From positions 434,001 to 498,000 of the forward strand of contig NZ_FOJB01000001.1 of assembly GCF_900109955.1 (NCBI RefSeq): 64,000 bases of DNA. Reading direction: 5' to 3'. The DNA is from Aliiroseovarius sediminilitoris (GTDB lineage: Bacteria; Pseudomonadota; Alphaproteobacteria; Rhodobacterales; Rhodobacteraceae). Shown here piece by piece: positions 32,063 through 48,991 of this stretch. Both the position numbers and the translations under genes were made by a program. The notes beneath the pieces are model-generated. The model did no database searches. It had not been told where the DNA came from and worked only from the letters and a program-made list of their open reading frames with translations. Within the stretch, counting starts at the first letter, position 1. Each line of letters starts with the position of its first letter.

Positions 32063-33043
32063 ATGTTTGCCTATCTCGTGAAGCGAGTTTTTCAGGCGAT
32101 TGCCGTGATGTTCGTTATCTCGCTTATCGCTTTCGCCATTCAGGGCAATCTGGGCGACCCCCTGCGTGAGCTGGTCGGTCAGTCCGTTTCCGAAGAGGTG
32201 CGTCAGCAACTCAGGGACGAATTGGGTCTGAATGACAGCTTTCTGACTCAGTATCTTCGCTTTGCAGGCAACGCGCTTCAGGGCGATCTTGGCACATCCT
32301 ATTTTTTCAAAGAGCCTGCGCTTGATGTGATCATGAAGAAACTGCCAGCCACACTTGAGTTGGTTCTGGGCGCCACAATCATCATTGTCGGGCTGTCCAT
32401 ACCATTGGGTGTTTACACCGCCATCAAGCCCGACTCGATCCTGAGCCGCATCATCATGGGGCTGTCGATTGTCGGCATCTCGATCCCCGTCTTCCTGACC
32501 GCCATTCTGATGATTTTTGTCTTTTCGGTGAACTATGGTTGGTTCCCATCCTTCGGCCGAGGCGATGTCGTGCATGTCTGGGGATATTGGTCGACCAATT
32601 TCGCGACTGCCGATGGGTGGATGCATATCATCCTGCCTTCGATCGCACTTGCCTCGATCATGTTGCCGCTGTTCGTCCGCCTGATCCGGGCCGAGATGAT
32701 GGAAGTGCTGCAATCAGAATATGTCAAATATGCTGTTGCCAAGGGCATCCGGCCGTGGCGTATCTATTTCGTTCATGCCCTGAAGAACACTTTGCTGCCC
32801 GTGATCACCGTGGGCGGGGTGCAGATCGGGACCATGGTAGCCTATACCATCCTGACCGAGACAGTGTTTCAGTGGCCGGGCATGGGGTTCATGTTTCTTG
32901 AGGCGGTGAACCGGGTCGATACGCCGCTGATCGTGGCCTATCTGATTGTCGTTGGCTTCATCTTTGTTGTGACCAACACCATTGTTGATCTGATCTATGG
33001 TTTGGTGAACCCGACCGTGAACCTTGCAAGGATGGGCGCATGA
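32063..33043 (+). CDS. Peptide ABC transporter permease, DppB-type
   Basis: This 326-residue protein has six membrane helices. The N-terminal helix (FQAIAVMFVISLIAFAIQG) is followed by the periplasmic LGDPLRELVGQSVSEEVRQQLRDELGLN region typical of DppB/OppB, and the EAA loop LQSEYVKYAVAKGIRPWRIYFVHALKN lies at about 215-245. It pairs with the next gene to form the channel; ATGA overlap at its stop. Confidence 0.92.
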   Translation: MFAYLVKRVFQAIAVMFVISLIAFAIQGNLGDPLRELVGQSVSEEVRQQLRDELGLNDSFLTQYLRFAGNALQGDLGTSYFFKEPALDVIMKKLPATLELVLGATIIIVGLSIPLGVYTAIKPDSILSRIIMGLSIVGISIPVFLTAILMIFVFSVNYGWFPSFGRGDVVHVWGYWSTNFATADGWMHIILPSIALASIMLPLFVRLIRAEMMEVLQSEYVKYAVAKGIRPWRIYFVHALKNTLLPVITVGGVQIGTMVAYTILTETVFQWPGMGFMFLEAVNRVDTPLIVAYLIVVGFIFVVTNTIVDLIYGLVNPTVNLARMGA

Positions 33044-33990
33044 GCACCGAGACCGCGACCCCCCGGGCCGAGCCTTCGCGCTGGTCGAAGATCGCCAATT
33101 CCAACATGGGCTACAGCTTTCGTCGCAACCCGGTGGCGGTCGTCAGCCTGATCATATTCGCGCTGATCGCCGGGGCGGCTTTCCTGTCGCCGCTGATTGC
33201 GCCCTATGATCCCTATGATCCGGCGCAGATCAACATCATGAACTCGGAATATCCGCCGGTGTGGATCAACGGTGCCCTGCCGGACTTCATCTTGGGCACC
33301 GATGACCAAGGCCGCGACCTTTGGTCGACGATCCTGTATGGCACGCGCCTGTCGTTGCTTATCGGGATTTGCGCAGTGGCTTTGCAGGCGTTCCTGGGCA
33401 TCACGATTGGCTTGCTGGCCGGCTATATCGGCGGGCGTCTGGACAACTTGCTGATGCGTTTGGCTGATATTCAGTTGTCGTTCTCGACGTTGATGGTTGC
33501 GATCATCTTTCTGGCGGTTACGCAGGCCATGTTCGGGTCCGAGACGTTTAACCAATACGCCGTTTTCTTCCTGATCGCGGTGATCGGCGTGGCCGAATGG
33601 CCGCAATACGCGCGGACCGTGCGGGCCACCGTGTTGGCCGAAAAGAAGAAGGAATATGTCGACAGCGCGCGCGTGTTGGGGTTTGGCCCCGTGCGGATCA
33701 TGGTGCGGCATATCCTGCCGAACTCTCTGTCGCCGATCTTTGTCATCTCGACCGTGCAGGTGGCAAACGCGATCATTTCCGAGGCATCGCTGAGCTTTCT
33801 TGGCTTGGGTATGCCGCCCAGCCAGCCATCGCTTGGGTCGCTGATCTCGTCGGGGTTCGACTATATCTTTTCGGGTAGTTGGTGGATCACGGTGATCCCC
33901 GGTGTCGTGCTGGTTATTCTTGTTCTGGTGATCAACCTGCTGGGCGACTGGATGCGCGATGTCCTGAACCCGAAACTCTATAAGGGGTAA
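33040..33990 (+). CDS. Peptide ABC transporter permease, DppC-type
   Basis: The 316 residues start with the cytoplasmic OppC_N segment (MGYSFRRNPVAVVSLIIF) leading to the first helix. FILGTDDQGRDLWSTILYGTRLSL is the DppC signature (GTDxxGRDxxSRxxxGxRxSL), and the EAA loop KKEYVDSARVLGFGPVRIMVRHILPN follows at about 205-230. The start overlaps the stop of the preceding permease. Confidence 0.93.
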   Translation: MSTETATPRAEPSRWSKIANSNMGYSFRRNPVAVVSLIIFALIAGAAFLSPLIAPYDPYDPAQINIMNSEYPPVWINGALPDFILGTDDQGRDLWSTILYGTRLSLLIGICAVALQAFLGITIGLLAGYIGGRLDNLLMRLADIQLSFSTLMVAIIFLAVTQAMFGSETFNQYAVFFLIAVIGVAEWPQYARTVRATVLAEKKKEYVDSARVLGFGPVRIMVRHILPNSLSPIFVISTVQVANAIISEASLSFLGLGMPPSQPSLGSLISSGFDYIFSGSWWITVIPGVVLVILVLVINLLGDWMRDVLNPKLYKG

Positions 33991-33994
33991 GGCA

Positions 33995-34990
33995 ATGTCT
34001 TTGCTTTCTGTGCGCGACCTGACCGTCAAGTTCGCCATGCGCGATGAAACCGTGACCGCGTTGAACGGCATTTCCTTCGACATCGCGAAGGGTGAACGTC
34101 TGGGCATCGTCGGTGAAAGCGGGGCGGGAAAGTCGATCACCGGCTTTTCGCTGATGAACCTGATCAGTCGCCCCGGTTACGTCGATCGCGGCGAGATCTT
34201 ACTGGACGGTGAAGACGTCGTGAAGATGAGCGACGCGCGTCTACGCGAGCTGCGCGGCGACAAGATGGCGATGATCTTTCAGGATCCCATGGTGACATTG
34301 AACCCGGTTCTGACCATCGGCCAGCAGATGATCGAAACCTTGCTGGCCCACCGCAAGCTGAGCCGGGAAGAGGCCCGCCAGATTGCGATTGTCAAGCTGC
34401 GCGAGGTTTATATTCCGTCGCCCGAGGAACGTCTGGACCAATACCCGCACGAATTGTCTGGTGGGATGCGTCAGCGGATCATCATCGCCATTGCGCTTCT
34501 GCTGGACCCGGAGTTGATCATCGCGGACGAGCCGACAACCGCGCTGGATGTGACCATTCAGGCCGATATCATGGAACTGCTGCTGGAACTGTGTCAGTCC
34601 AACAAGGTGGGTCTGATCCTGATTACCCATGACCTTGGTGTCGTCAGCCAGATGACCGAGCGGACACTGGTCATGTATGCAGGGCAGATCATCGAAGCCG
34701 GGCGCACCCGCGAGATCATCAACGATCCGCAGCACCCCTATACGCAAGGTTTGATCAACGCTTTGCCGCAGCAAACCTTGCCGGGGCAAAAGCTGCGACA
34801 GATTCCAGGTAACATGCCATCTTTGACAAACATACCCGCGGGCTGTCCTTTCAACCCACGTTGCGAATACGCAACCGATCTGTGTCGCACCAAGGTGCCA
34901 GAGATCATCCAATACGGTGAGGTTCAGGTGGCTTGTCACGAGGTTGAAAGGCTGCACGCCGAAGGCGCGCGGCAGGAGCAGAACGCATGA
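33995..34990 (+). CDS. Peptide ABC transporter ATPase, DppD-type
   Basis: This 331-residue ATPase has Walker A GESGAGKS near 43-50, Q-loop IFQDPMVTLNP, signature LSGGMRQR, Walker B LIIADEPTTALD and the C-terminal oligopeptide/dipeptide domain with cysteines (AGCPFNPRCEYATDLC). It pairs with the DppF-type ATPase whose start overlaps its stop by 4 bases. Confidence 0.94.
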   Translation: MSLLSVRDLTVKFAMRDETVTALNGISFDIAKGERLGIVGESGAGKSITGFSLMNLISRPGYVDRGEILLDGEDVVKMSDARLRELRGDKMAMIFQDPMVTLNPVLTIGQQMIETLLAHRKLSREEARQIAIVKLREVYIPSPEERLDQYPHELSGGMRQRIIIAIALLLDPELIIADEPTTALDVTIQADIMELLLELCQSNKVGLILITHDLGVVSQMTERTLVMYAGQIIEAGRTREIINDPQHPYTQGLINALPQQTLPGQKLRQIPGNMPSLTNIPAGCPFNPRCEYATDLCRTKVPEIIQYGEVQVACHEVERLHAEGARQEQNA

Positions 34991-36033
34991 AAGACATGAA
35001 CGTTCAGACGCCTCTGGTCGAAATCAAAGGCTTGGAAAAGAGGTTCGATCTTGATCAAGGCTTTCTTGAAACCCTAAAGTTTCGTAACGGTCGCATTACC
35101 CGAGAAACGCGTGCCGTCCATGCCGTAAACAACGTGACGCTGGATGTGAACCGCGGCGAGGCGTTGTGCGTTGTCGGGGAAAGTGGCTGTGGCAAATCGA
35201 CCGTTGCCCGTCTGGTGGCGGGGCTTCTGACCCCAACCAGCGGCGAAATCCATTATGACGGATCGCGCATCGACAACCGCTCGCGTGCAGAAATGCAGCC
35301 GTTGCGCAAGAAGATCCAAATGATCTTTCAAAACCCCTACGCGTCGCTGAACCCGCGCATGACCATCCGGCAGGCGTTGGAAGAGCCTGTGAAACATCAC
35401 TTCCCTTCGTTTTCTGCGGCGGAAGTGCGGGACAAGGTAACAGAGGTGATGATGTCCGTCGGGGTTGATCCCAGCTGGGCCAAGCGGTACCCGCACGAAT
35501 TTTCAGGCGGGCAGCGGCAGCGGATCGCGATCGCTCGCGCCTTGACGGTCGACCCGGAGTTCATCATCGCGGATGAACCGATCAGCGCGCTGGACGTGTC
35601 GATTCAGGCACAGGTGTTGAACTTGATGCTGGAGGCCAAGGAAAGCCGTGGCCTGACCTACTTGTTCATCACCCACGATCTGAGCGTGGTCGAACACTTC
35701 GGAACGCGTGTGGCGGTGCTGTATCTTGGAGCGGTGTGCGAAGTTGCCGACACCGCCACACTGTTCTCGAACCCCAAACACCCCTATACTCGGGCCTTGT
35801 TGTCCGCAGTTCCGCAATTGAAGGATGACCGGCCAAACCACATCCGCCTGAAGGGCGAGATCCCGACGCCGATCAACATGCCGCAAGGTTGTCCCTTCCA
35901 AAGTCGCTGCGCATTTGCGAATAACAGGTGCATAAGTGAAAAGCCGAAAGCCATTCACCAACCTGACGGCAGCCTTGTGGCCTGCCACGCTGTCGAGGAA
36001 AACCGGTTGGACGAGGATGTGATCGGCGCCTGA
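34987..36033 (+). CDS. Peptide ABC transporter ATPase, DppF-type
   Basis: This 348-residue ATPase has an N-terminal insert before Walker A (FLETLKFRNGRITRETRAVHAVNNV) as in DppF/OppF. Walker A is GESGCGKST, the Q-loop IFQNPYASLNPRMT, the signature [15 protein letters not shown], Walker B FIIADEPISALD, and the C-terminus carries the cysteine-bearing QGCPFQSRCAFANNRC segment. It is the last gene of the transporter; the LysR gene starts 15 bases later. Confidence 0.94.
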   Translation: MKDMNVQTPLVEIKGLEKRFDLDQGFLETLKFRNGRITRETRAVHAVNNVTLDVNRGEALCVVGESGCGKSTVARLVAGLLTPTSGEIHYDGSRIDNRSRAEMQPLRKKIQMIFQNPYASLNPRMTIRQALEEPVKHHFPSFSAAEVRDKVTEVMMSVGVDPSWAKRYPHEFSGGQRQRIAIARALTVDPEFIIADEPISALDVSIQAQVLNLMLEAKESRGLTYLFITHDLSVVEHFGTRVAVLYLGAVCEVADTATLFSNPKHPYTRALLSAVPQLKDDRPNHIRLKGEIPTPINMPQGCPFQSRCAFANNRCISEKPKAIHQPDGSLVACHAVEENRLDEDVIGA

Positions 36034-36048
36034 TACGGACCCGCGTCA

Positions 36049-36999
36049 TTGGATATAATCTGGCTTAGAGACTTTGAAGCGTTGGTTGCGTGCAAGAATT
36101 TCTCGCGCGCCGCGGAAGAGCGCAACGTAAGTCAGCCGGCTTTCTCGCGGCGTATCAGAGCGTTGGAGAACGAGATCGGCGTGCGCCTGATCAATCGCGA
36201 AACCCTACCTCTGGCATTGACTCCGGCGGGCGAGGTCTTTCTGTCGCAAGCCCGCATCATGTTGCGCACATATGAAGAAACCATCGAACGTTGTCAGACG
36301 ATAGATGCTGCAAGCGAGAATGTTATTCGGTTCGCGACCTCGCAATCACTTTACATGACGCATTACAAAAACCTGATCGCCCCGCTGGCCAGCAAAGGTG
36401 GCGTGGAGACCGACCTGAACTCGACTTCGTGGGCGGCGGATCAGTTTGTCAGTGCGCTTCAGCAAAGCTATTGCGATGTGATCCTGACCTATTGGCACCC
36501 GTCAATGCAGTTTCTGGGGCCGCTTGAGGTTGCGAATTTCGAGCATCTGACCTTATCGGCGGATCGGTTTGTGCCGGTGTCCCGCACCAGACCCGGTGGC
36601 GGACCGGAGTTTCAGTTCAAGACCGGCAGCAAAGATGCGATGCCGCTGTTATCCTACGGGGCCGTATCGGCGTTGCGCGCGGTGCAGGATTTCGTGCTTG
36701 AGCAAGCCATCACCCCGCAAAAGATGCTGATTGTGAACCAGAACGCGCTGGCCAACAGTGTGAAAGCGATGATCCTTGAAGGATTTGGCATGGGGTGGCT
36801 TCCGCTGAGTTTGTGCAAGACCGAGCTGGCGGAAGGCCGGCTTGCCATCGTTGAAGAACGGTTGGCGACCGATCTGGAAGTGCGCGTCTATCGCGACCCG
36901 AAAAACAACAAGGGCACGCTGCACGAACTATGGGCGCAATTGCTGCAAGAACAACGTTCACGGCTACACCGACGCCCCAGACGCGGCGCAACTCTGTAG
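36049..36999 (+). CDS. LysR-family transcriptional regulator
   Basis: This 316-residue regulator has an N-terminal winged HTH (MDIIWLRDFEALVACKNFSRAAEERNVSQ leading into a PAFSRRIRALENEIG helix) and a C-terminal periplasmic-binding-like effector domain. The only reasonable start is TTG 36049; no in-frame ATG precedes the HTH. Its place 15 bases after the ABC operon on the same strand suggests it controls or is co-expressed with the peptide transporter. The effector is unknown. Confidence 0.88.
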   Translation: MDIIWLRDFEALVACKNFSRAAEERNVSQPAFSRRIRALENEIGVRLINRETLPLALTPAGEVFLSQARIMLRTYEETIERCQTIDAASENVIRFATSQSLYMTHYKNLIAPLASKGGVETDLNSTSWAADQFVSALQQSYCDVILTYWHPSMQFLGPLEVANFEHLTLSADRFVPVSRTRPGGGPEFQFKTGSKDAMPLLSYGAVSALRAVQDFVLEQAITPQKMLIVNQNALANSVKAMILEGFGMGWLPLSLCKTELAEGRLAIVEERLATDLEVRVYRDPKNNKGTLHELWAQLLQEQRSRLHRRPRRGATL

Positions 37000-37145
37000 C
37001 TGTATTGGTTAACAGATTGTAGCTGTCTCGTGCGGGCGCGTTAGACGGTCTCAACCCTGTCTTCATAGGACTCTGACGAATTGCTGCCGCCGTCGATCTG
37101 TTCGGCTTGGTGGTGTGCATGGTGCCAAACTGTCAGGAGCATATG

Positions 37146-37412
37146 ATGACAAACCCCTTCGAGAACCGTTCGCTTTCCCTGCGTGGGCCTGCAACTGATA
37201 TGGCGCCGGTCACGCCGTCTGATGCCAGAGATCTGATCAACGTCGCTGTCGCGCTGTATGTTGAAACGGGTGGGGCCGTCGCTTTTACGTCGGTGGCCGG
37301 ATATGATCGCGTGGTCATGGTCGGGGATAACGCAATTCTTCCCGTTGGGGTCAGTCGCGTCATGGCCACTGGTACGACGGCCGCTGGTATCCATGCCTTT
37401 GTGCTCGTCTGA
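37146..37412 (+). CDS. ghsA: GTA-type head spike base protein (RcGTA rcc01079 / GhsA family)
   Basis: This 88-residue protein begins MTNPFENRSLSLRGPATD and runs through a beta-rich body (VTPSDARDLINVAVALYVETGG, then RVVMVGDNAILPVGVSRVMATGTTAAGIHAFVLV). I recognise this as the family named after R. capsulatus rcc01079, the base of the head spikes of the gene transfer agent. ATG 37146 is preferred to 37143 because AGGAG at 37135-37139 then has normal spacing. The stop overlaps the next gene by one base. No other GTA structural gene is in the window, as expected because spike genes are distal to the main GTA cluster. Confidence 0.8.
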   Translation: MTNPFENRSLSLRGPATDMAPVTPSDARDLINVAVALYVETGGAVAFTSVAGYDRVVMVGDNAILPVGVSRVMATGTTAAGIHAFVLV

Positions 37413-38224
37413 TGATGGGGTTGGGATATGATATTCCGGCGCTTGCGTTACGTCGAAGACCATCGACCACGCCCGCGCCGTTTTCGCCGGAGTCGCTGTC
37501 TCCGTCTGTATTCTTTGATCCGTCGCAGATGTCTTCCTTGTTTCAGGATATTGCTGGCACCATGGCTGTTTCGGCAGACAATCAACCGGTCGGGCTTTGG
37601 CAGGATTTGTCAGCGAATGGTCAGAATCTTGGCCAAGAGGTCAGCGCCGCCCGCCCGACATATCGGACCGATGGCAGCTTCCACTGGGTCGAGGCTGATG
37701 GGGTGGATGACGGGTTGAAGACGGCGCCTGTTTTCGATGTTCGGAACCCCGTCACGATGGTGTTGGGGTATCAGATGCTGTCAACCTCGGGCACCGCGCG
37801 CGTGAACATTGCCGAGATCAGCCAGACCAGCACAAACGGCATGTCGGTTGGGGTGCGACCAAACATTGATCGGTTGCAGTATTACAGCCGCATGTCGCAA
37901 CAGGGCGTGCCCGCCAGCAATGTGGCATCCCCGACCGTTTGGGGAAACCACGAGAAACATGTGGTCACACTACAAGCCACGTCAGGCCATGTGACTGTGC
38001 GGTTGGATGGCGTGCCGGTCATTGATACGGCGCAGAACCTTGCACAGCAGTCGATTTCGGCGCAACCGCTTCGCATTGGACTTGGTCTGGTGACGGCAAG
38101 CATTCCGGGAGCGTTTCGGCTGTTCGGTTTACAGGTCTGGACGTCAAGCGCCACGCAACCCAATGCGACACAGATTGACGAATTGGAAGCGTGGCTCGCC
38201 GCCAAGATGGGAGTATCTCTATGA
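37412..38224 (+). CDS. Probable GTA head-spike/fibre protein (GhsB position, lectin-like)
   Basis: This 270-residue protein, coupled to the spike base (one-base overlap), starts MMGLGYDIPALALRRR, an N-terminal segment that probably joins the base. The remainder looks like a concanavalin/LamG-type beta-sandwich: VFFDPSQMSSL, then LWQDLSANGQNLGQ, VEADGVDDGLKTAPVFDV, and a C-terminal half with VTLQATSGHVTVRLDGVPV and RLFGLQVWTSSATQ. Such folds in phage and GTA tails or spikes bind glycans. In R. capsulatus the second spike gene (ghsB, rcc01080) follows ghsA; the assignment here is by position and fold impression, not by sequence identity. Confidence 0.6.
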   Translation: MMGLGYDIPALALRRRPSTTPAPFSPESLSPSVFFDPSQMSSLFQDIAGTMAVSADNQPVGLWQDLSANGQNLGQEVSAARPTYRTDGSFHWVEADGVDDGLKTAPVFDVRNPVTMVLGYQMLSTSGTARVNIAEISQTSTNGMSVGVRPNIDRLQYYSRMSQQGVPASNVASPTVWGNHEKHVVTLQATSGHVTVRLDGVPVIDTAQNLAQQSISAQPLRIGLGLVTASIPGAFRLFGLQVWTSSATQPNATQIDELEAWLAAKMGVSL

Positions 38225-38613
38225 CCATTCGTATTACCATTGCCTGTCCAGAGGGCATGATGTCCGAAGCCAATCAGTTTGCGCTCTGCGTTGGGAACTC
38301 GCCCGCCGATGCACAGACATTCGGTTCGGCGACGTGGGAAGACGGGACGGGGGAGCGTTATGCGCTGGCCTCGCTTTTGGCCGGGGCACAGTTTCCACAG
38401 GTGGCGGGCGCACCGCTTCTCGCACCGGCTTATGCACCGGATGCAGATATTGCCGAGGCAGGGATTGCTCAGGCAGCGCTGCGCATATGGTCGCCCATGT
38501 CACAAGGCAGTTTTCCAGAAATTGGGCCAGATCGTCTTGTCGCAGTCATTGGGCTTGAAGCTGGGCTGGCCATTCCTCTCCTTGGTTTGTCACCCGTTCC
38601 AATCGAGGACTAA
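38221..38613 (+). CDS. Uncharacterised protein coupled to GTA spike genes
   Basis: The 130 residues have no signal peptide or membrane helix (MTIRITIACPEGMMSEANQF; later FGSATWEDGTGERYALASLLAG). ATG 38221 overlaps the previous stop (ATGA), so it is the third gene of the spike unit. I do not recognise a named family, though similar proteins occur beside spike genes in related genomes as far as I recall. It may be an additional spike or capsid decoration subunit or a folding helper. Followed by 140 bases of AT-rich sequence before the capsule locus. Confidence 0.65.
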   Translation: MTIRITIACPEGMMSEANQFALCVGNSPADAQTFGSATWEDGTGERYALASLLAGAQFPQVAGAPLLAPAYAPDADIAEAGIAQAALRIWSPMSQGSFPEIGPDRLVAVIGLEAGLAIPLLGLSPVPIED

Positions 38614-38753
38614 ACTTGGCCTTCTGTCTACTTTGTCTGGGCAGAAAAGCTGCGTAGCCTGCGCGGCCATCAAAATACTTTGCAGTTTAGACAAATCATG
38701 ATAGCAACCTAAAGATGAAAAGAATTTAGGTTAATGCAACCATGAGGTAGTTC
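38614..38753 (+). promoter_or_regulatory. Promoter region of the exopolysaccharide locus (rightward)
   Basis: This AT-rich gap contains a perfect inverted repeat AACCTAAA (38706-38713) / TTTAGGTT (38725-38732) with an 11-base spacer, 22 bases before the sugar-transferase start. There is no T-run, so it is more likely an operator than a terminator. The 11-base string CAACCTAAAGA (38705-38715) recurs exactly at 52153-52163, upstream of the leftward part of the same locus. Confidence 0.5.
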
Positions 38754-39413
38754 ATGCAGCAATACGGCATGACACCGGATCAAACGGTGGATCTGGATCC
38801 GAGGCCTACACGCGCCGCTGCGCTGACGCCGCTTGGTTTTGCAATCGGTAAACGTGTTTTCGATGTCTTTTTCTGCCTGCTGTTAGTGCCAATTCTCGGC
38901 GCAACCAGCTTGCTTTTGCTGCTTCTGAACTATGCCTTCAATCCGGGGCCGTTGCTGTTCATGCAGCCCCGGATGGGGCGCGACTGCACCCCCTTCATAG
39001 CGTATAAATTCCGCACAATGACGCCGTCGACGCAAAGGCGTCGCGCGAATGATCCCCTTGAAAACGAGCGTATCACCAGCCTCGGCGCCGCATTGCGACA
39101 AAGCCGTCTGGATGAGTTGCCCCAGATCATCAATGTCCTGCGAGGCGAGATGAGTCTGATCGGTCCCCGGCCCGATTGCTATGATCATGCCGTCACCTTT
39201 CTGCAAGATGTGCCTGGCTACAAAGAGCGTCACGTGGTTCTGCCGGGGATCAGTGGCTTTGCGCAGACAGAGCTTGGCTATGTCGAAGGCACTGAAGCCA
39301 CGATCAAGAAGGTGGAGGCCGATCTTCACTATATCGCCAATCGTGGTTTCCGGCTGGAAGCGTGGATTTTCTGGCGGACACTCGTGACGGTGATCAGCCG
39401 TTCGGGGCGTTAA
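38754..39413 (+). CDS. Undecaprenyl-phosphate sugar-1-phosphate transferase (initiating glycosyltransferase)
   Basis: This 219-residue PssY/ExoY/WbaP-type bacterial sugar transferase starts repeat-unit synthesis on undecaprenyl phosphate at the inner membrane. It has one N-terminal membrane segment (about 37-60), then the catalytic domain: KFRTM at 85-89, DELPQ at 120-124 and GEMSLIGPRPD at 131-141. It lacks the extra N-terminal helices of the long WbaP class. First gene of the capsule locus, 34 bases before the Wzc-like gene. Confidence 0.93.
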   Translation: MQQYGMTPDQTVDLDPRPTRAAALTPLGFAIGKRVFDVFFCLLLVPILGATSLLLLLLNYAFNPGPLLFMQPRMGRDCTPFIAYKFRTMTPSTQRRRANDPLENERITSLGAALRQSRLDELPQIINVLRGEMSLIGPRPDCYDHAVTFLQDVPGYKERHVVLPGISGFAQTELGYVEGTEATIKKVEADLHYIANRGFRLEAWIFWRTLVTVISRSGR

Positions 39414-39446
39414 TTTCGTGTTTGCATACCGATCAAGGGGCTATGA

Positions 39447-41405
39447 ATGAATATTCGGCAGGAGTTTCCGGACGCCTATGGTTCGACGGCTCGGGATGAC
39501 GCGGAGAGGCCCACAGATCTGGACCTTCTGCGTGTCGGACAGGCGTTGTGGCGGGGCCGTCGGGTGATTGCCCTGCTGGGCATCGTTGGGCTGGTGCTGG
39601 GCGCAGTCTACGGATTTGGAGTTGCGCGCCCCAAATACGCGGCAACGGCTTTACTGGTTATGACGCCGTCGTCCGATCCGGTCATTTCTGGCGATGTCTC
39701 ATCGCAACCCGTGTCGCAAGACCTGTCGGACATGAACACGCAACTTCACATCATTCAGTCGCGTGGCCTGGTGCACAAGCTGGTTGATGAACTGGCCTTG
39801 ACGAGCGATCCGGAATTCAACCCGGCGCTGCGGTCCGGCTGGTCCGTCTTTCCCACGGCTGGTTCTGCGAAATCGGCGGCAGAAGACCCTGAAACCATCG
39901 AACGGGTGATCGGGACTGTGCAGGGCGCGCTGTCGGCCTATGTGCAGAGAAACACACGTATTTTTGCGATCACAGTGCGTTCGGAAGATCGCTTGAAGGC
40001 CGCCAGAATGGCCAACGCGCTTTCGGCCATTTATTTGAAAGATCAAATTGATGCGAAGTTCCAAGCGGCAGATGATGCGGTCGGGTGGCTGTCGGACCGT
40101 GTCGGTGTCTTGCGGCAGGAACTGACGGCGCGCGAAGCGGCCGTTGCGCAACTCAGCACGCGGATGGATTTGACCTCGGTCGAGGGGCTGGCCATCCTGA
40201 ACGCGCGCTTGAAGGACGCGCGCGCGCGGCTGCAGGACGTGCAACAGCGTGCGGATCAAACCGAAGATCGTCGCGACGGTGATCAGCAGAGGTTGGCTCT
40301 TCAGAAATCAGCGTTGGAAAAATCCATTGCCGAGCTTGCGCTGGCGGTTAAGACCCAAAGTGCCGATGCAAACGCGCTGCAACAGTCGGAACGTGAAGTC
40401 CAGGCGACACGTGTACTTTATGAAACCTTATTGGCGCGTTTGAAACAGGCGAGTGCCTTGCGCGGGTTGCAGCAGGCGGACGCGCGGGTTCTGTCTGCGG
40501 CGTCGGCGGGCACATATCAATCCCCGCAAAAGGGGTTGATCATGCTGGCCGGGGCGATGATCGGTATTGTCCTTGCGGGTGCCTATGTCTTGTCGAAGCA
40601 GTTTGTGCATGCTGGGTTTCGCACCTCGGATGAGTTGGAAAAGGCAACCGGGAAACCTGTTTTGGGACAAGTTCCCGTCATTCCCGTTGCGAACCGCAGC
40701 GCGTTGGTGCCGTTTCTGTCGAACCACCCGACAGCCGCAGCGGTTGAAGCCGTCCGAAACCTGCGCACGTCGCTTTTGATGTCAAACATCGACCAACCTC
40801 CGCAGGTTGTGCTGGTCGCTTCGGCTGTGCCGGGCGAGGGTAAGACAACGCATGCGGTGGCCCTGACACAAAACCTTGCCGGTTTGGGCAAGCGTGTGCT
40901 GTTGATCGAAGGGGACATCCGCCGCCGCACTTTGGAGCAATATGTGCCCGGCCCGTCGGAGCTTGGGATCATGTCGGTGCTGGCCGGTGATCTTTTGTTG
41001 TCAGATGCAGTGCAACACGTACCGGGGCTGGGTGCGGATGTTTTGTTCGGTGAAAGAACACGGTCGAGCGCCGCAGATCTGTTCGCGTCGCGCCGATTTG
41101 AAATCCTGATGCGGGACGCGCGGGCGGCTTATGACATGATCGTCATTGACAGCCCTCCGGTGTTGGTGGTTCCAGACGCGCGTGTGATTGCCCGCCAAGC
41201 GGATGCGGTTCTTTTCACCGTGGGGTGGAACAAGACGACCCGTCGGCAGGTTGCCGAAGGTTTGCGGCAGTTTGAGAGGGTGAATCGCGAAGTCACGGGT
41301 TTGGTGCTGTCTCAGGTCAAACCCGACGACATGGTGCGCTATGGGTATGCGGCAACCAATCCCGCATATACGACTTATGGCGAAGAGTATTACGGCCCGA
41401 CTTAA
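39447..41405 (+). CDS. Polysaccharide co-polymerase / tyrosine autokinase (Wzc/ExoP type)
   Basis: The 652 residues contain a Wzz-like N-terminal domain with helix 1 (VIALLGIVGLVLGAVYGFGVA, about 38-58), a periplasmic coiled-coil part (about 190-350), helix 2 (GLIMLAGAMIGIVLAGAYVLSKQ) and a cytoplasmic BY-kinase with Walker A PGEGKTT, Walker A' LLIEGD and Walker B MIVIDSPP. Six tyrosines in the last 22 residues are the expected autophosphorylation cluster. It controls chain length and export with the Wza-like protein. The two convergent genes share the palindrome TTAA (41402-41405) as their stop codons. Confidence 0.93.
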   Translation: MNIRQEFPDAYGSTARDDAERPTDLDLLRVGQALWRGRRVIALLGIVGLVLGAVYGFGVARPKYAATALLVMTPSSDPVISGDVSSQPVSQDLSDMNTQLHIIQSRGLVHKLVDELALTSDPEFNPALRSGWSVFPTAGSAKSAAEDPETIERVIGTVQGALSAYVQRNTRIFAITVRSEDRLKAARMANALSAIYLKDQIDAKFQAADDAVGWLSDRVGVLRQELTAREAAVAQLSTRMDLTSVEGLAILNARLKDARARLQDVQQRADQTEDRRDGDQQRLALQKSALEKSIAELALAVKTQSADANALQQSEREVQATRVLYETLLARLKQASALRGLQQADARVLSAASAGTYQSPQKGLIMLAGAMIGIVLAGAYVLSKQFVHAGFRTSDELEKATGKPVLGQVPVIPVANRSALVPFLSNHPTAAAVEAVRNLRTSLLMSNIDQPPQVVLVASAVPGEGKTTHAVALTQNLAGLGKRVLLIEGDIRRRTLEQYVPGPSELGIMSVLAGDLLLSDAVQHVPGLGADVLFGERTRSSAADLFASRRFEILMRDARAAYDMIVIDSPPVLVVPDARVIARQADAVLFTVGWNKTTRRQVAEGLRQFERVNREVTGLVLSQVKPDDMVRYGYAATNPAYTTYGEEYYGPT

Positions 41406-42769
41406 GGCACGCTGCTGTCGCCGTTGACGGATTTGTTGATCAGGATCGGGAAGGCTTGTTCGAAGGCGCGTGACCATTTGGTGATCGGCTGTTCTTCGAT
41501 AAAGACGATATCGTTTGGACGCATCTGCATCCGCGTGGCCAGCGTGATGTTGACCACATTCGTGGCATCCAGATGCCAAGCCGTGACCTTGGTATCATCA
41601 GTTCCCGTTCCTGGACGGATCACATAAATCTGCGCCGGATCGCCGGTTCTGGTGTCAAACCCGCCCTCATCATACAGCACATCAGCCAAACTGGCTTGCC
41701 GCCCATAAGGCAGGGCGACCCGGCCTTGCTGGGCTACTTCGCCTGCCAGATAGACATAGTCGCGCGTTTCGGCGTCAAGTTCGCGGCGGGTCGAGAAGTT
41801 GGCGCGTCGTTCGTCCAGTGCGTCGCGTTGCACCGACATTTCGGCCTTCAACTCGGTCAAAGCCTGGAGGCGCGCGCCGCGTTTCAGGCCAATCGCCGTG
41901 ATCTGCGCCTCGTAAAAGGCCAGCGCCCGGTCGAGGTTATAGCTTTCATCCACATAGATCGCATCGCCCGGCAAAAGCGTCAGGTTGCGCGCCTCGGCAT
42001 TGGACGGAACGGCTGAGGCGGGCATTTGATAAAGTGTTCCATCGCGGTAAAGACGTATCGCCGTTGCTTCCTTGTCAACTGCAATGACCCCACCTGCCTG
42101 TGCCAGCGCATCGCCAAGCCGCAAGGGTTTCAACGTCAGGGGCACCAAGCCTGCGCGGGCAACCTTTCCACCAACGGCCACATGTTGCGAGTTGAATTCG
42201 GCGATCTCAAGGCTGAAGGCGGGGTCGATGTTCTTGGCCACAAGGGCTTGGAAAACGGCGTCTTCGGCGTCTTCCAGCGTGTTTCCTGCAACCTTGATCT
42301 GCCCAATGTCGGGCAGCGCGATCATCCCGTTGTCGCGCACGGTAAAGCCTTTTCGCTGGGTTTGTGCGCTGAGAAGCCCGCCCAGTTCCTCAATCGTGCT
42401 GGTGGTACTTTTGGTCACGAGCATCACAACGTCGCCAATGCCAATCCTGTAGCGTTGCGGAGCGATCTGGTCCGGCAGTTTGGTGGCTATGCTTTCGCGC
42501 GATTGTGTGGGGCCGTCCGGAATGTCAGGCAGGGTTGCCGCGCCACGCAGGCTTGCGCCACCGGCTTCCGCGTAAAACGCGTCCGGCAGGCTTAGGGGAA
42601 CATAGGGTGCGCTGTTGGCCTGCTTTACCGAACTTGCGGTGATGGGCATTACCTTCACGTCCAGCCCGGCGGCCTGTGTTTGCACGGTAGGGCTGTTATA
42701 GGTCACACCGCAGCCGACCAAGACAAGGCTGGTGCCAAGAAAAAGAGCGCGCAATCCGCTGTGATGCAT
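41402..42769 (-). CDS. Outer-membrane polysaccharide export lipoprotein (Wza/KpsD type)
   Basis: This 455-residue protein has a lipoprotein signal (FLGTSLVLVGC, lipid-modified C20). A Poly_export domain follows (RYRIGIGDVVMLVTKS near 103-118 and VRDNGMIALPDIGQIKVAGNTLEDAEDAVFQAL), then two SLBB-like domains (VAVGGKVARAGLVPLTLKPLRLGDALAQAGG and VYLAGEVAQQGRVALPYG). It forms the outer-membrane channel. The start has GGAGG seven bases upstream. It lies at the end of the leftward capsule genes, after a 105-base gap containing a long hairpin. Confidence 0.93.
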   Translation of the reverse strand: MHHSGLRALFLGTSLVLVGCGVTYNSPTVQTQAAGLDVKVMPITASSVKQANSAPYVPLSLPDAFYAEAGGASLRGAATLPDIPDGPTQSRESIATKLPDQIAPQRYRIGIGDVVMLVTKSTTSTIEELGGLLSAQTQRKGFTVRDNGMIALPDIGQIKVAGNTLEDAEDAVFQALVAKNIDPAFSLEIAEFNSQHVAVGGKVARAGLVPLTLKPLRLGDALAQAGGVIAVDKEATAIRLYRDGTLYQMPASAVPSNAEARNLTLLPGDAIYVDESYNLDRALAFYEAQITAIGLKRGARLQALTELKAEMSVQRDALDERRANFSTRRELDAETRDYVYLAGEVAQQGRVALPYGRQASLADVLYDEGGFDTRTGDPAQIYVIRPGTGTDDTKVTAWHLDATNVVNITLATRMQMRPNDIVFIEEQPITKWSRAFEQAFPILINKSVNGDSSVP

Positions 42770-42874: not shown

Positions 42875-44083
42875 CTAGGGTTGTTGGATGTGAAGATGCT
42901 TCGGGTCGCGTGTGTTGCTGAATTGCGGCGTGTTATGGGGGCTGGGGCGAAGTCGCGCGTCCGCCGTGGTAGCCTGGCCGGGCACGAGGTCGGAAATCGC
43001 GGACAAGTAGCTGTCGACCACGATCGCCTGGTCATATTCCCGCAACATCTTGTCGCGCCCGGCACCGCCCATCATGACACGGGTATTGGTGGGCATGTCT
43101 GCAAACGCCACCAGTCTTTGGCGCAGGCTTTCGATATCGCGTGGCACACACAGCATGCCGGTGATCCCGTCATCCACCACATGTCGGCAGCCCGGCACAT
43201 CGGTGGCAATCAGGGGCCGGGCCATGCTGGCGGCTTCCAGCAGCGTGCGCGGTGCGCCTTCGCGGTAGGATGGCAGGACCACACTGTCGGCCAGCGCGAT
43301 AAAGGGGCGCACGTCGTCATGTTCGCCCAGATGTTCGATGACACCTGCCTGGACCCAACGCGAAAGATCGTTTGCGCCCAGTGCCGATCGGTTCGCTGCA
43401 CCCACCTGGCCAAGAATCTGGAACCGAACATCATTGCGGACAGTCCTGATCTGGCGCGCGGCCTCGACATATTCCAGCACGCCCTTGTCGCGCAGAAGAC
43501 GCGAGATCATCAGGAACACCGTGCCTTTTCTGGCAGGTAAAGGCATTGGGGAAAAGTGCTTCAAGTCTACACCGGAGCCGGGCACAAGACGCGCCTGACC
43601 AGGTGCGATCAGTCGCCGTTGGACAAACAGGTCACGGTCATCCGGGTTTTGAAAGAACAGGATTGGCAGCCCCCGGAAGGCAAAACGATACAGCGTCTCG
43701 ACCACCATTCTGAGCGCGCCACCTGACAGGAAACCGGTCCCCAAGCCAGAAACATTAGGCAGAAACGGGATCGCCATCCGTTTCGCCGCCACCGCGCCGA
43801 AGATGTTGTTCTTTACTGTGTAACCGAGGATGACGTCAGGTCTGAGCGTAGCAAAGTGTGAGGCAAATCGGTTGACCAACCTGGCGTCTTGCCGGGGCGA
43901 CAATCCTTGCACATCCATGTGCAGCTCGACCACCCGACACCCCATGGCACGCAGGGCTGGTGCTGCGTCGTCCAGCGGTGCCAGAATGGTGACGTGATGA
44001 CCTTTGCTCAGCAAAGCCTCGATCACCGGGCGGCGGAAATTCAGGGCGTTCCACGCGGCGTTGACGGTCAGAAGTACTCTCAT
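42875..44083 (-). CDS. Glycosyltransferase, GT4-like
   Basis: The 402 residues form two Rossmann-like domains: the N-terminal acceptor domain starts MRVLLTVNAAWNALNFRRPVIEALLSKGHHVTILAPLDD, and the C-terminal donor domain has VFLMISRLLRDKGVLEYVEAA and the ExxxxxxE-like block LPSYREGAPRTLLEAASMARPLIATDVPGC. It adds a sugar from a nucleotide donor to the lipid-linked repeat in the cytoplasm. The start overlaps the stop of the polymerase-like gene by 4 bases. Confidence 0.9.
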   Translation of the reverse strand: MRVLLTVNAAWNALNFRRPVIEALLSKGHHVTILAPLDDAAPALRAMGCRVVELHMDVQGLSPRQDARLVNRFASHFATLRPDVILGYTVKNNIFGAVAAKRMAIPFLPNVSGLGTGFLSGGALRMVVETLYRFAFRGLPILFFQNPDDRDLFVQRRLIAPGQARLVPGSGVDLKHFSPMPLPARKGTVFLMISRLLRDKGVLEYVEAARQIRTVRNDVRFQILGQVGAANRSALGANDLSRWVQAGVIEHLGEHDDVRPFIALADSVVLPSYREGAPRTLLEAASMARPLIATDVPGCRHVVDDGITGMLCVPRDIESLRQRLVAFADMPTNTRVMMGGAGRDKMLREYDQAIVVDSYLSAISDLVPGQATTADARLRPSPHNTPQFSNTRDPKHLHIQQP

Positions 44084-45162
44084 GGAAAACCTCGGTTCGG
44101 CAATTGATAAATGCCGGGCATTGAAAACAGCCAGCTGTCATAGGGCAGGTAGCAATAGTGGAAATGGGCGGAATAGATGGTCCAAACCGACAGCATCCCC
44201 AACAGCACGACATAAGGCGCGACGGACAGGATTGTGCCTGTTGGGCCAAGGCGCAGTGACGGGATGCGCGCCAGTATCATGGCCTGTAGGGGGATCAGGA
44301 AATAACCGATGCGGTCCGCAATCACACTGGACAGGCCGATCAGCGGTACGGTCGCCAGCATCATCAGCGCACCCAGCACCATGATCCTGTGATCCCCCGG
44401 AAAGCGCGCGCGCCAAGCCGGGCGCAGCACGAGGAAAAACAACCCCCCAGTCAGCGCCAGCAGCGCGGCACGATACAGCGCGCCAGAGGCGTCCACCCCC
44501 GTGTTGACATAACGCGACAACGCAAGCTGCGCGCCATCGCCGGTTGCCAGAAGATAAACACCCGGCCCCGCCAGCACCAAGGCTGCAAGCAACCGCGCCC
44601 TGACCCGATCGCGCCCAGCCAGAGGAGCCAACAGCACGAACACGCCCGCGCTGGAGTGAAAGCCGGTGGCAATCAGCGTGTGGAGGGTGAACCGCGCCGT
44701 GCGCCCATTGCTGAACGCGGCAAAAGCTGCGCACATCACCCCGATAGACGCCGCCTGCCGAATGCCGGACATCGGCATGTTGAGGATCAGCACCGGGTAG
44801 AGAAGGATCAGAAAACCCAACCGGTCAGGTTGTCGACGCGCCAATGCATGCACGCCCGCAAAGAAGATCAGCGCCGCGGCCACATTCAGCCACGGATAAC
44901 CCAGACCCAGCCTACCGATCAGTTGGACCAGCGCCCACCACAACGGCTCGCGCTGGGCCAGGGCATCGGCGAAACCAAGGTCCAGTTGAATCAGGAAGTG
45001 ACGGTAGTAGCCATTCCAGTCGCAGCCGACCTCGAGCCGGAACGCAACGAACAGGAACAGGGCGGCAAGCACGACGGGATAGATCTGGTCGCGCAAGCGG
45101 GAATGGTGTGCCAGCACGAGGCGCAGCAGGATCAGCGCAAGGAACAGGACGACATAGATCAC
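44080..45162 (-). CDS. EpsG/Wzy-like polysaccharide polymerase
   Basis: From GTG 45162 this is a 360-residue polytopic membrane protein with about ten helices. FRLEVGCDWNGYYRHF near residues 46-61 matches the EpsG family pattern (FR-x2-VG-x-DW-x2-Y), and later segments (LNMPMSGIRQAASIGVMCAAFAAFSNG) match the RQ-containing loop of that family. GTG overlaps the TGA of the upstream gene (GTGA); the longer opening to 45237 would extend out of the membrane domain into sequence coding the neighbour. It probably joins repeat units in the periplasm. Confidence 0.85.
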   Translation of the reverse strand: MIYVVLFLALILLRLVLAHHSRLRDQIYPVVLAALFLFVAFRLEVGCDWNGYYRHFLIQLDLGFADALAQREPLWWALVQLIGRLGLGYPWLNVAAALIFFAGVHALARRQPDRLGFLILLYPVLILNMPMSGIRQAASIGVMCAAFAAFSNGRTARFTLHTLIATGFHSSAGVFVLLAPLAGRDRVRARLLAALVLAGPGVYLLATGDGAQLALSRYVNTGVDASGALYRAALLALTGGLFFLVLRPAWRARFPGDHRIMVLGALMMLATVPLIGLSSVIADRIGYFLIPLQAMILARIPSLRLGPTGTILSVAPYVVLLGMLSVWTIYSAHFHYCYLPYDSWLFSMPGIYQLPNRGFP

Positions 45163-45977
45163 GGCTGCATGGCGCCCTGAACACCCGTGGGCAACCTGCT
45201 GCGCGCAACATAGACGAGTTGCACAACCACGCCCCAAAGCAGGCAGACCAGCGGGGCAGCTTCATTGGTCAGCACGGACAGAAGAAGAATGAGCGGCAGA
45301 ACAGCGATATGGGTTTTCAGGTGATAGCTGCGAGCTTTGCGTTCTGGCAGCGACAGTCGCCCTTTGGCATCCATGTAGGTCAGGAACCGTGGCAGGGTGA
45401 ACAGCAGAAGCGCGGTGGCGAAAACCGTCAGAATGGCCGTTGTGTCACCTTTGACAATCAGTGCAGGCAGAATGGGCAGCGCGAACCTGAACAGGGAAAG
45501 CTGTATGAATGTATAGAACTTCAACTCGACCGCGCGCAGGGTGTTGTGAGCGATCAGCGTAGCGGCCAACGCTGCCACGGCAGTCCAGTAAAGGCCCGAG
45601 GTGACGACCCCCAATACGAAGGCCGCAGCCAGCCCAACACCCAGCCGTATGACCACGAAAGCGAAGATGAAACCAGCGGAACTGGCGACCTCTACCCGTC
45701 GCCGGGGAGTCGGATCATGACGCAACCCGATCGTGTCATTGGCCAGATAGCCCAGTTCATAGATGCAGATGAATGTGGCATAGCCCAACAGATAACTGGT
45801 GATTGCAGCCCCTGCAGACAGATCGCCAAGCAGTGCCAGAAGGATCATTCCTGACACCCACGCCGTCAGGGCATTGACGATGAAGTCGCGCGGCCAGTGA
45901 TAGCGAGAGACGAACGCATATCCAAACGGCAGCAGCAGGATCAGGTGGCGCAGCCTAGTGGCACAGAATTTCGGCAT
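45159..45977 (-). CDS. UbiA-like polytopic membrane protein
   Basis: This 272-residue protein has about seven to eight helices. It carries a UbiA-like first motif at 80-94: ND, then D88 and basic residues (LANDTIGLRHDPTPRRR), where the middle aspartate of the usual NDxxDxxxD is glycine. The second aspartate motif of UbiA enzymes is not clear. UbiA members transfer prenyl chains or, as in decaprenyl-phosphate phosphoribosyltransferase, join a sugar phosphate to a polyprenyl phosphate. It starts 23 bases inside the HAD gene, an arrangement recalling fused HAD-UbiA proteins. The function in this capsule locus is inferred. Confidence 0.6.
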   Translation of the reverse strand: MPKFCATRLRHLILLLPFGYAFVSRYHWPRDFIVNALTAWVSGMILLALLGDLSAGAAITSYLLGYATFICIYELGYLANDTIGLRHDPTPRRRVEVASSAGFIFAFVVIRLGVGLAAAFVLGVVTSGLYWTAVAALAATLIAHNTLRAVELKFYTFIQLSLFRFALPILPALIVKGDTTAILTVFATALLLFTLPRFLTYMDAKGRLSLPERKARSYHLKTHIAVLPLILLLSVLTNEAAPLVCLLWGVVVQLVYVARSRLPTGVQGAMQP

Positions 45978-46623
45978 CCCACTTCCTCATCCATTTGCGG
46001 GGAGTGCGTGAGGCAACCAACACAGCGGGGTATGCCACCGCGACCAGATCACGGTCCGACCGGTTGTCGGTGATCACCGCAAACTGCACATGGTCAAGCG
46101 AGTGATTCAGATATGCCTCGATCGCTTTGCGTTTTTGTCCGGTCAGATCACGGAACAACCGGCCTGTCAGGCACCCATCCTGAACATCCGGCTGCGATGC
46201 GATGCAGGGTAGTTCAAGTTTCCGTGCAATTTCTTCAATCACAGGCGCAAGGGCGTTTGACACCAGGACAGGCTGCCAACCCGAAGCGCGCATTTGCGCC
46301 ACACGGGCATGGGCGGCGGGTATGGCGTGGGTGGGAAGATGATCCGCGACATATCGCGTCGCCGAGGCTTGCAGTGAAGTCAGGGTTTCACCCCGCAGGC
46401 TGGCCAGAACAAGCGCACGGTGGGCGTCAAACCGGCTCAGTTTGGCAAATAGGATCAATCCCTGTTGCAGCATTGATCGGCGGCGCGTCAGAGCCTTCAT
46501 CATCGCAAACCGCCACCGATGCCCGCGGCGCGCGTGGTGAAACGTCACCAGTCCGGCAGTGGTGTTGGTATCATACAATGTGCCGCAGACGTCTACCGCA
46601 AGGGTCCGGTCGGTGTGAGTCAT
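45955..46623 (-). CDS. HAD-superfamily hydrolase of the capsule locus
   Basis: The 222 residues carry motif I DVCGTLYDTNT (nucleophile D11), motif II LVSNAL, motif III lysine in GQKRKAIEAY and motif IV ITDNRSDRDLV. The residue two after the nucleophile, normally Asp in phosphatases, is Cys13. A helical cap lies between motifs I and II, as in HAD-IB enzymes. Its tight coupling to the UbiA-like gene suggests it dephosphorylates that enzyme's product, for example a polyprenyl-phospho-sugar phosphate; this is inference. Confidence 0.8.
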   Translation of the reverse strand: MTHTDRTLAVDVCGTLYDTNTTAGLVTFHHARRGHRWRFAMMKALTRRRSMLQQGLILFAKLSRFDAHRALVLASLRGETLTSLQASATRYVADHLPTHAIPAAHARVAQMRASGWQPVLVSNALAPVIEEIARKLELPCIASQPDVQDGCLTGRLFRDLTGQKRKAIEAYLNHSLDHVQFAVITDNRSDRDLVAVAYPAVLVASRTPRKWMRKWDAEILCH

Positions 46624-47861
46624 GCGGCCTTCCTTTCGATGCCGAACGACCGATAGAGCGCGTCGTAGACATCACATGCCCGTTCAAGTGAAAACCGGGC
46701 GGCGGCATGGGCGCGAATGACGGCGCGTGGGGCAAATGGAGCCGACGCGATGGTGCGTGCGGCGTGTTCAATCGCAGGGGTGTCGTGATGAGCAAGCACC
46801 AGACCGAACCGGCGATCCGGCAAGATGTCGTTGATATCGCCAATCCCGGTGTTGCTGATCACCGGCAGGCCACAGGACAAATATTCACCGACCTTGGTGG
46901 CCGAAACGCCGAGGCTGGACTTGCTGGCAATGCGGAAGGACAGGCCGATATCCGCAGCGTTCAGAAGCGCAGGCACCTCGTCATGCGGAACATGGCGGCA
47001 GGTCAGATGCGCCGGGTTCAGCGTGACACCATAGCTTTGGGCAGCCTGGACATGCTGTTGCACATCGAGGTCCCCGACCAACAAAAGCCGCCCCCGCATC
47101 CGCTGCGCTTGAAGGGCGGCCAGCAGGCGATATGTCGTGCCCATCTGATAGAGCGGCCCAGCGGATCCAAGATGCACCAGCACAACATCTTTTGCCGAAT
47201 ACCCCAGCGCCAGCCGCGTGCTTGCCCGCAGGGTCTTGTCGGGTCGGAACCGGGTCTGATCGACGCTACAGGGAATGACGCTTGTGACCGACCCCGCCGA
47301 CGGGCGGCGTGTTGCGACGACGGCTTTCGCGTCGTGGGTCAAGGCGATAATCGCGCTTGCGTCGCTGATTGCCTTTGTTTCCAGTTTGCGAAAGTGACGG
47401 GAAATGCTGTGGCCCAGCGGTCCTTGCCAGATGCCTGCCTCGCAGCGTTCGTCCACCCAGAACCCGCGCATGTCGAACACAAAGGGCAGGCCGCGCCGCT
47501 TGCAGACTGGCAGGACCGCCCCCAAGGGCATATAGCTGCGGCAATGGATCAGGTCGGGCTGAAAGGCGTCGACCAGCTTGTCCAGACGGCTTTGCATCAA
47601 CGCCGGCATGGCGAAGCGCTCCAGCTTCCCCGCCAGCGGCAAGGTGCGGCGCAGGATTGGGCTGTGCAAGACCCCGGCGCGTTTCAGCCTTGGTGCGATC
47701 TTGGTGTCAAAAACGTCCTGCCTTGTGGGATGCTCGACCGACAGGCAGGCGATGCGATGACCGCGGGCCGCCAGGCCTTCAAGATAGGGTAGCACCTGCG
47801 CGGTGCCGATATGATCGGACAGGCCGTTATTGGTGACGAAGATCGAACGGGTGGCGCTCAT
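46620..47861 (-). CDS. Glycosyltransferase, GT4-like
   Basis: The 413 residues have a GT-B fold: N-terminal domain SIFVTNNGLSDHIGTAQVLPYLEGLAARGHRI with the GxxQV-type glycine-rich loop, and a C-terminal domain with VVLVHLGSAGPLYQMGTTYRLLAAL and LSFRIASKSSLGVSATKVGEYLSCGLPVISN (the KxxEYLxxGxPV signature). It adds one sugar of the repeat unit; donor unknown. ATGA overlaps with both neighbours. Confidence 0.88.
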   Translation of the reverse strand: MSATRSIFVTNNGLSDHIGTAQVLPYLEGLAARGHRIACLSVEHPTRQDVFDTKIAPRLKRAGVLHSPILRRTLPLAGKLERFAMPALMQSRLDKLVDAFQPDLIHCRSYMPLGAVLPVCKRRGLPFVFDMRGFWVDERCEAGIWQGPLGHSISRHFRKLETKAISDASAIIALTHDAKAVVATRRPSAGSVTSVIPCSVDQTRFRPDKTLRASTRLALGYSAKDVVLVHLGSAGPLYQMGTTYRLLAALQAQRMRGRLLLVGDLDVQQHVQAAQSYGVTLNPAHLTCRHVPHDEVPALLNAADIGLSFRIASKSSLGVSATKVGEYLSCGLPVISNTGIGDINDILPDRRFGLVLAHHDTPAIEHAARTIASAPFAPRAVIRAHAAARFSLERACDVYDALYRSFGIERKAA

Positions 47862-48991
47862 ATGTGCCTCATTGACTTTGATAACTTGGGTTCAGGAAGA
47901 AGGGGCAGGAACCTGACAGCCGCGACACCCGGACGGAAGTCCAGAGCGCGTTTGCGCGCCGCGTCAGGGTTGTGCGGCACACGCAGGGCGGCACCGATTG
48001 CGGCAGCCAAGGCGGCGGTGTCCCCTACAGTAACCAGGGTGCCAACGTCGGGGGTGTTCAGGATTTCGGCTGGGCCATGGGGGCAATCGGTGGCGACAAC
48101 GGGAAGGCCGTGCGACAACGCCTCGACAATCACATTCGCGAACCCTTCGCTGCGTGAACTGAGCGCGAACAGATCGGCGGTCGCATAATAGGACCCGGTA
48201 TGCGGCGTGAACCCCGGCATCGCCACCCGTTCGGTCAGGCCCAGCGACTGCACCATCCCAGACAGCACCGCACGATCAGGCCCATCGCCAAGAATGACAA
48301 GTTCGCCGTCGCAGCCTTTGTCCAGCAGCAGGCGGAAGGCACGCAGAAGGGTCGGAAAACCTTTCTGCCAGCGCAAAGAGCCAACGGCCAATATCCGATG
48401 CTTTGCCTGTGCGGGCCAGACGGCGTGTCCTGTGTCTGGTTCGGGACGCATGACCGGGTTGTGGATGACCTTGACCCGGCCGACCGGCAGACGCCCCAAT
48501 TGCTCCAGATCGCGGGCAGACCCGGCCGAGACCGAGACATTGGCCCGCGCCCGAAGATAGGTTGCGCGGATACTTGCCCGCAACACAAGCCGGTGCGGCA
48601 CGCCTTTGCCCGCGTATTGATTCGACAGCGTCGCGTGATCGGTGGTGATGATCGGCACCCCCGTTCCGCGCGCCGCCCAGACCGCGATGCTGGTCAGGGG
48701 CCACATCGCCGGGACCAGCGCCGTTGGTTGGTTTTCGCACAGCCAACGGCGCAACGGCGTGGCGACCTCCCGTAGACGGTCGGTCTTCAGGTCAGTGATG
48801 GGAAGGCGCGCGTGCTGGGCGTCGGCCATCAACGCGCCACCTGCGTTGGCAAGGATGATATGTGGCGCATAGCCAAACTGCGCAAGCTCGGTGGCCAGCG
48901 TCAGCATCACACGTTCCGCGCCGCCGCCGCGCAGGTCAGGTAACACGAAGGCCAGTGTATTGTCAGATTGCAGCGGATAAGCGTGCTTCAT
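47858..48991 (-). CDS. Glycosyltransferase, GT4-like
   Basis: The 377 residues have a GT-B fold: LAFVLPDLRGGGAERVMLTLATELAQFGYAPHIILA at the N-terminus is the GT4 opening with GGAERV. HRILAVGSLRWQKGFPTLLRAFRLL and the acidic block LSSRSEGFANVIVEALSHGLPVVATDCPHGPAEIL complete the donor site (E-x7-E). It is related to, but clearly distinct from, the neighbouring glycosyltransferases, so the repeat unit probably needs at least three transfers after the initiating sugar. Confidence 0.9.
   Translation of the reverse strand: MKHAYPLQSDNTLAFVLPDLRGGGAERVMLTLATELAQFGYAPHIILANAGGALMADAQHARLPITDLKTDRLREVATPLRRWLCENQPTALVPAMWPLTSIAVWAARGTGVPIITTDHATLSNQYAGKGVPHRLVLRASIRATYLRARANVSVSAGSARDLEQLGRLPVGRVKVIHNPVMRPEPDTGHAVWPAQAKHRILAVGSLRWQKGFPTLLRAFRLLLDKGCDGELVILGDGPDRAVLSGMVQSLGLTERVAMPGFTPHTGSYYATADLFALSSRSEGFANVIVEALSHGLPVVATDCPHGPAEILNTPDVGTLVTVGDTAALAAAIGAALRVPHNPDAARKRALDFRPGVAAVRFLPLLPEPKLSKSMRHI

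Follow-up and report, generated by a model that had tools for sequence, protein, structure and literature searches.

Putative gene-transfer-agent head-spike genes are linked to a capsule/exopolysaccharide locus in Aliiroseovarius sediminilitoris and to polysaccharide genes across genera

Introduction

Why should genes for the head spike of a gene transfer agent (GTA) lie next to genes for a surface polysaccharide? In R. capsulatus, the head spikes of the agent RcGTA bind the capsule, and capsule genes are adjacent to and co-regulated with the spike genes (PMC10218006, PMC7296036). The original prediction for the locus described here pointed to this R. capsulatus arrangement. The maintenance of suicidal GTA production is an open question, with delivery confined to kin as one proposed answer (PMC10883770). 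We analyzed a 64,000-nucleotide stretch of A. sediminilitoris contig NZ_FOJB01000001.1 (positions 434,001 to 498,000; hereafter “the window”, whose numbering we use). We consider it likely that positions 37146-38613 represent the head-spike cassette of this strain’s own RcGTA-type GTA, that the neighboring locus makes the glycan to which the cassette’s lectin binds, and that linkage causes cassette and glycan locus to be inherited together. Capsule binding and gene adjacency are already known in R. capsulatus, and the window locus is a new example of that arrangement.

A three-gene cassette with an RcGTA-family base and a phage counterpart

The original prediction assigned the gene at 37146 to the Rcc01079/GhsA spike-base family, and profile searches bear this out. 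The encoded 88-residue head-spike base protein (37146-37412, forward strand; a further in-frame ATG lies ahead of the start, at 37143) scores 97.7 bits against NCBIfam model NF048002 (“spike base protein, RCAP_Rcc01079 family”; cut-off 28), 2e-17 against PHROG 12296, and E = 9e-10 against the solved RcGTA “Head spike base Rcc01079” (PDB 6tb9, 6tba, 6tsu and 6tui). It is present as a single copy in the genome. Two coupled genes follow on the same strand, again as proposed: a putative fibre gene (37412-38224), whose start overlaps the spike-base stop at 37410-37414, and a third gene (gene 3; 38221-38613), whose ATG at 38221 overlaps the fibre stop at 38224. We rejected other reading frames overlapping gene 3, such as 38279-38701, as spurious, because homologs of gene 3 occur in a phage and in further genera. 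The window shares with R. capsulatus Rcc01079/Rcc01080 (GhsA/GhsB) its base family, a fibre gene directly after the base, a GTA structural cluster located elsewhere, and adjoining polysaccharide genes, there the capsule genes rcc01081-rcc01086 (PMC10218006, PMC7296036). It differs in having a third gene and in encoding an initiating transferase, Wzc and Wza within the locus itself; in R. capsulatus, those genes (rcc01932, rcc01958-60) are listed apart from rcc01081-86.

The second gene encodes 270 amino acids (269 from the second ATG), and an AF2 model, Foldseek searches and homology to gp39 of the Cobetia phage Carin1 together point to a head-spike fibre. Its predicted layout comprises a short N-terminal Gly/hydrophobic peptide followed by a ConA/LamG-like lectin domain. 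The AF2 model (mean pLDDT 82.4) is predicted to have a ConA/LamG-like lectin fold, and phage proteins labeled ConA-like lectins are among its best viral Foldseek matches. The fold also resembles binding domains of assorted unrelated PDB proteins, which we read only as common ConA-like lectin architecture. Sequence searches of the PDB with the fibre and with gene 3 gave no meaningful match for either.

The N-terminus of the window fibre, MMGLGYDIPALAL, resembles the docking peptide of the RcGTA fibre (IALGLGLGL), with a Tyr because of which it misses the strict phi-G-phi-x-phi anchor pattern at one position. Spike-base-coupled genes in other genera often start with a comparable Gly/hydrophobic peptide (MLGLSLGL, MIGVGIGV, MSGIGLGLGLG) and thereafter encode quite dissimilar proteins of ~120 to 1,400 amino acids. 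Of 74 spike-base-coupled genes, 30 have the phi-G-phi-x-phi pattern among their first 12 residues, versus 19 of 1,814 others (P 1e-32); this P value is descriptive, as the pattern was picked after inspecting these N-termini. The downstream parts of 83 coupled genes fall into 35 families, and some of these genes probably do not encode fibres. On a Limimaricola plasmid (L200:12261-13619) the spike base is followed by an annotated sialate O-acetylesterase, and on a Cereibacter plasmid (L201:1430-3334) by an annotated SGNH/GDSL hydrolase; both have Gly/hydrophobic peptides at their N-termini. Judging from these annotations, a subset of head fibres may act enzymatically on acetylated glycans.

Gene 3 encodes a 130-residue protein that appears to be a conserved companion of lectin-type fibres, with homologs in Aliiroseovarius and at four further loci. 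Its AF2 model (pLDDT 93) shows one clear structural match, to an unnamed Caudovirales protein. In phage Carin1, gp40-gp39-gp38 are homologs of the base, fibre and gene 3 in matching order, with gene ends that overlap or abut as in the window. Carin1 gp40 is annotated as a head spike base protein and has been structurally identified and validated. The gp39 protein begins with MLGLGLGI and is 54% identical to the window fibre over 63 residues of the lectin region, while gp38 is 40% identical to gene 3 over its full length. The phage cassette differs in lying within the head module, just after the major capsid and cement genes, with no capsule locus, and in its longer fibre (384 amino acids). Given this three-gene counterpart and the Caudovirales structural match of gene 3, the cassette at 37146-38613 is very probably of virion origin. 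A spike-base homolog (45% identity) is also encoded by a family of R. capsulatus phages that includes RcMcLean (L205:4001-4294), where the gene that follows is annotated as helix-turn-helix and is not a fibre.

The adjoining capsule/EPS locus and its relatives

The capsule/EPS locus begins 140 bp after gene 3 and continues to 53.2 kb, and Pfam searches identify the initiating transferase, Wzc and glycosyltransferases that had been proposed. On the forward strand are an initiating sugar transferase (Bac_transf; 38754-39413; PF02397, 6.7e-48) and a Wzc-type chain-length regulator/tyrosine autokinase (39447-41405; Wzz at 4e-12, AAA_31, GNVR and eps_transp_fam). On the reverse strand are a Wza-type outer-membrane polysaccharide export protein (41402-42769; PF02563 at 5.9e-13, SLBB) and, by Pfam assignment, the remainder of the locus (42875-53231): GT4 glycosyltransferases, an EpsG-type (EpsG/Wzy-like) polymerase, a HAD hydrolase, an ABC exporter, a UDP-sugar dehydrogenase and an epimerase. 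The genome carries three PF02397 transferases, which leaves another glycan as a possible receptor.

The order base-fibre-gene 3-transferase-Wzc-Wza is conserved in all six Aliiroseovarius relatives that we compared. Across 32063-42769, identity between the window and these relatives (L002-L007) falls from 85-98% in the upstream ABC transporter and LysR genes to 86-92% in the spike base, 71-86% in the fibre and 52-75% in Wzc. This stepwise fall suggests faster evolution or recombination beginning at the spike cassette. It also fits an alternative explanation for the adjacency, in which variable, recombining capsule/EPS loci gather exchangeable genes, and fast-turnover spike genes meet them there without selection for the pairing. 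The conserved base-fibre-gene 3-transferase order argues against such hitch-hiking.

An RcGTA-type cluster elsewhere in the genome

The main GTA cluster does lie elsewhere in this genome, at ~2.108-2.122 Mb of C1, ~1.64 Mb from the window’s spike genes. It encodes a portal, HK97 capsid, connector, major tail protein, tape measure (RcGTA_tape NF058675, 337 bits), distal tail protein, hub, peptidase and megatron (1871 bits). We conclude that the three window genes probably build sugar-binding spikes of a GTA.

The cassette could instead be a prophage remnant, the relic of a phage insertion close to the capsule locus, belonging outside the GTA. A virulent phage, Carin1, does carry a homologous cassette, and some other spike bases adjoin prophage-type genes. 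Against this origin, the cassette’s open frames are 62-92% identical in the six Aliiroseovarius relatives and occupy an unchanged position, and no phage genes were found among the neighbors examined with Pfam. Moreover, the lone spike base is found in a genome that has a GTA cluster, and a putative CtrA half-site-like motif lies upstream of it. Overall, we judge a prophage remnant to be very improbable.

Among 299 genomes of the family, each from a different genus, 273 have a megatron match and 110 match the spike-base model. Most GTA-bearing genera are therefore without a recognizable head-spike base, through loss, replacement or divergence.

Spike bases lie near polysaccharide genes across genera and on plasmids

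Polysaccharide genes lie within 10 kb of 81 of 125 spike loci from 110 genera, and within 3 kb of 61, as counted with gene families built from those very loci and named from representatives. In the other 44, the 10-kb surroundings contain no such gene; contig ends truncate some of these loci or they look prophage-like, as where spike bases adjoin prophage-type genes at L144 and L146. Because these gene families came from the loci themselves, we used Pfam placements as an independent test. In 80 genomes, at least 30 of 88 spikes have a PF02397 transferase no more than 20 kb away, a conservative count, compared to 1.7 expected when the mean genome size is taken as 3.85 Mb (Poisson P ~1e-26). With the GTA megatron as a control anchor, the corresponding number is 0 of 46 among the matches listed (Fisher P 5e-7); since genera were treated as independent, both P values are too small. 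Spike-capsule adjacency thus extends beyond this strain, to six Aliiroseovarius relatives and, far above chance expectation, across genera, and it is not due to chance.

The contrast between strong spike linkage and no megatron linkage also speaks against hitch-hiking, but the megatron is a slow, conserved gene, so the contrast excludes it only in part. In favor of hitch-hiking, the genes adjoining the spikes vary from locus to locus, as do their side and orientation.

We identified spike bases on ten plasmids, nine of them from Rhodobacterales. In eight of these nine the spike base lies inside or adjoins a polysaccharide locus: Tritonibacter mobilis p4, Jannaschia p1, Pontibrevibacter (typed as conjugative), Marinovum pMaD9, Rhodovulum pRGUI04, Rhodovulum pRSMBB, Limimaricola, and Roseinatronobacter, whose spike base has no coupled fibre. 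The exception is Cereibacter pORIO5. On the tenth plasmid, from Acuticoccus (Hyphomicrobiales; L204:10460-12258), the spike base adjoins a sialidase-family gene, and rfb genes are located a few kb from it. Like the window, the plasmid loci place a spike base and a following, mostly fibre-like gene among glycosyltransferase and flippase genes, and Tritonibacter p4 shares the window’s lectin-type fibre. They differ in being extrachromosomal, in one case on a plasmid typed as conjugative, and in their varied fibre domains, as in the Limimaricola esterase.

Possible co-regulation of spike and polysaccharide genes

A TTAAC motif, a putative CtrA half-site-like element, lies ~133 bp upstream of the spike base (37009-37013, forward strand), and each of the seven Aliiroseovarius loci has a TTAAC ahead of its spike base. 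Among the wider set, TTAAC/GTTAA occurs upstream of 43 of 125 spike bases versus 175 of 1012 controls (P 2e-5), an enrichment that is conservative because the control set is more AT-rich. Putative CtrA half-sites have been reported in the R. capsulatus spike promoter (PMC9638019), and the upstream TTAAC in Aliiroseovarius fits that report. Full CtrA sites in the window occur at chance level, with none near 37146.

In another explanation for the adjacency, linkage would serve shared control, with quorum sensing and related signals switching spike and capsule genes jointly and the matching of specificities being secondary. Co-regulation is reported in R. capsulatus (PMC10218006), and we found no terminator-like site in the 140-bp gap between gene 3 and the transferase. 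Set against this, producers and recipients in an R. capsulatus population are different cells, so that one transcript is not needed, and the closest polysaccharide gene is oppositely oriented in many loci. We regard shared control as a doubtful explanation for the linkage.

Fibre families and neighboring gene content

The original prediction held that a ligand-receptor module is kept together so that spike and surface glycan change together. Recurrence of the linkage across genera and on plasmids supports the first part of this claim. For the second part, loci with a common fibre family share neighbor content only slightly more than other loci (Jaccard 0.095 versus 0.078; permutation p 0.08, with low power). 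When spike-base identity is controlled for in a partial Mantel test, the association between fibre family and neighboring gene content is not significant at the low power available (p = 0.18). The relative L007 gives a specific case: its distal capsule locus differs, in that a YjbH-type gene is present and nothing in the stretch compared matches the window’s EpsG-to-HAD block, yet it retains a full-length homologous fibre (71% identity). Co-change of fibre and glycan is thus not supported, and the locus is best read as a linked receptor-binding cassette and glycan locus, in an arrangement that was already known. The non-significant co-variation after control agrees with hitch-hiking, which on all the evidence above we still consider unlikely.

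A proposed model for spike-directed delivery to kin

In our preferred reading, a GTA head spike linked to the genes for its receptor, the base protein would be placed on the five-fold vertices of the capsid, as its sequence similarity to PDB 6tb9 suggests. The fibre would be pinned into the base by its short N-terminal Gly/hydrophobic peptide and would display the predicted ConA/LamG-like lectin domain. Gene 3, judging only by its constant company, may serve the lectin fibre as an accessory or assembly partner. The lectin would bind the glycan produced by the neighboring capsule/EPS locus, so that particles would first attach to cells with the same locus, that is, to kin. Ligand and receptor would then be inherited jointly whenever the locus is transferred, by plasmid or otherwise.

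More tentatively, the cassette and glycan locus may form an exchangeable kin-recognition supergene. Transfer by plasmid or recombination would then re-target a fixed chromosomal GTA to cells with that glycan locus, and fibre domains (lectins, SGNH-type esterases, large unrelated proteins) would be swapped on a constant base by way of the short docking peptide. With the spike linked, in dozens of genera and on plasmids, to genes that probably make its receptor, the kin-delivery answer can be tested: the linkage predicts the glycan bound by each GTA, and predicts that swapping one locus swaps partners in gene flow. In literature outside most subscription journals, we did not encounter accounts of the spread of this arrangement among genera, its occurrence on plasmids, the recurrent docking peptide, or the third gene and its Carin1 counterpart.

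Two further kinds of protein repeatedly accompany spike bases in EPS loci (L075, L080, L101, L103, L104, L126, L169 and L173), several of which have exosortase or TPR genes: a family of ~780 amino acids, and right-handed beta-helix proteins. Both kinds are possible depolymerases or EPS-processing proteins.
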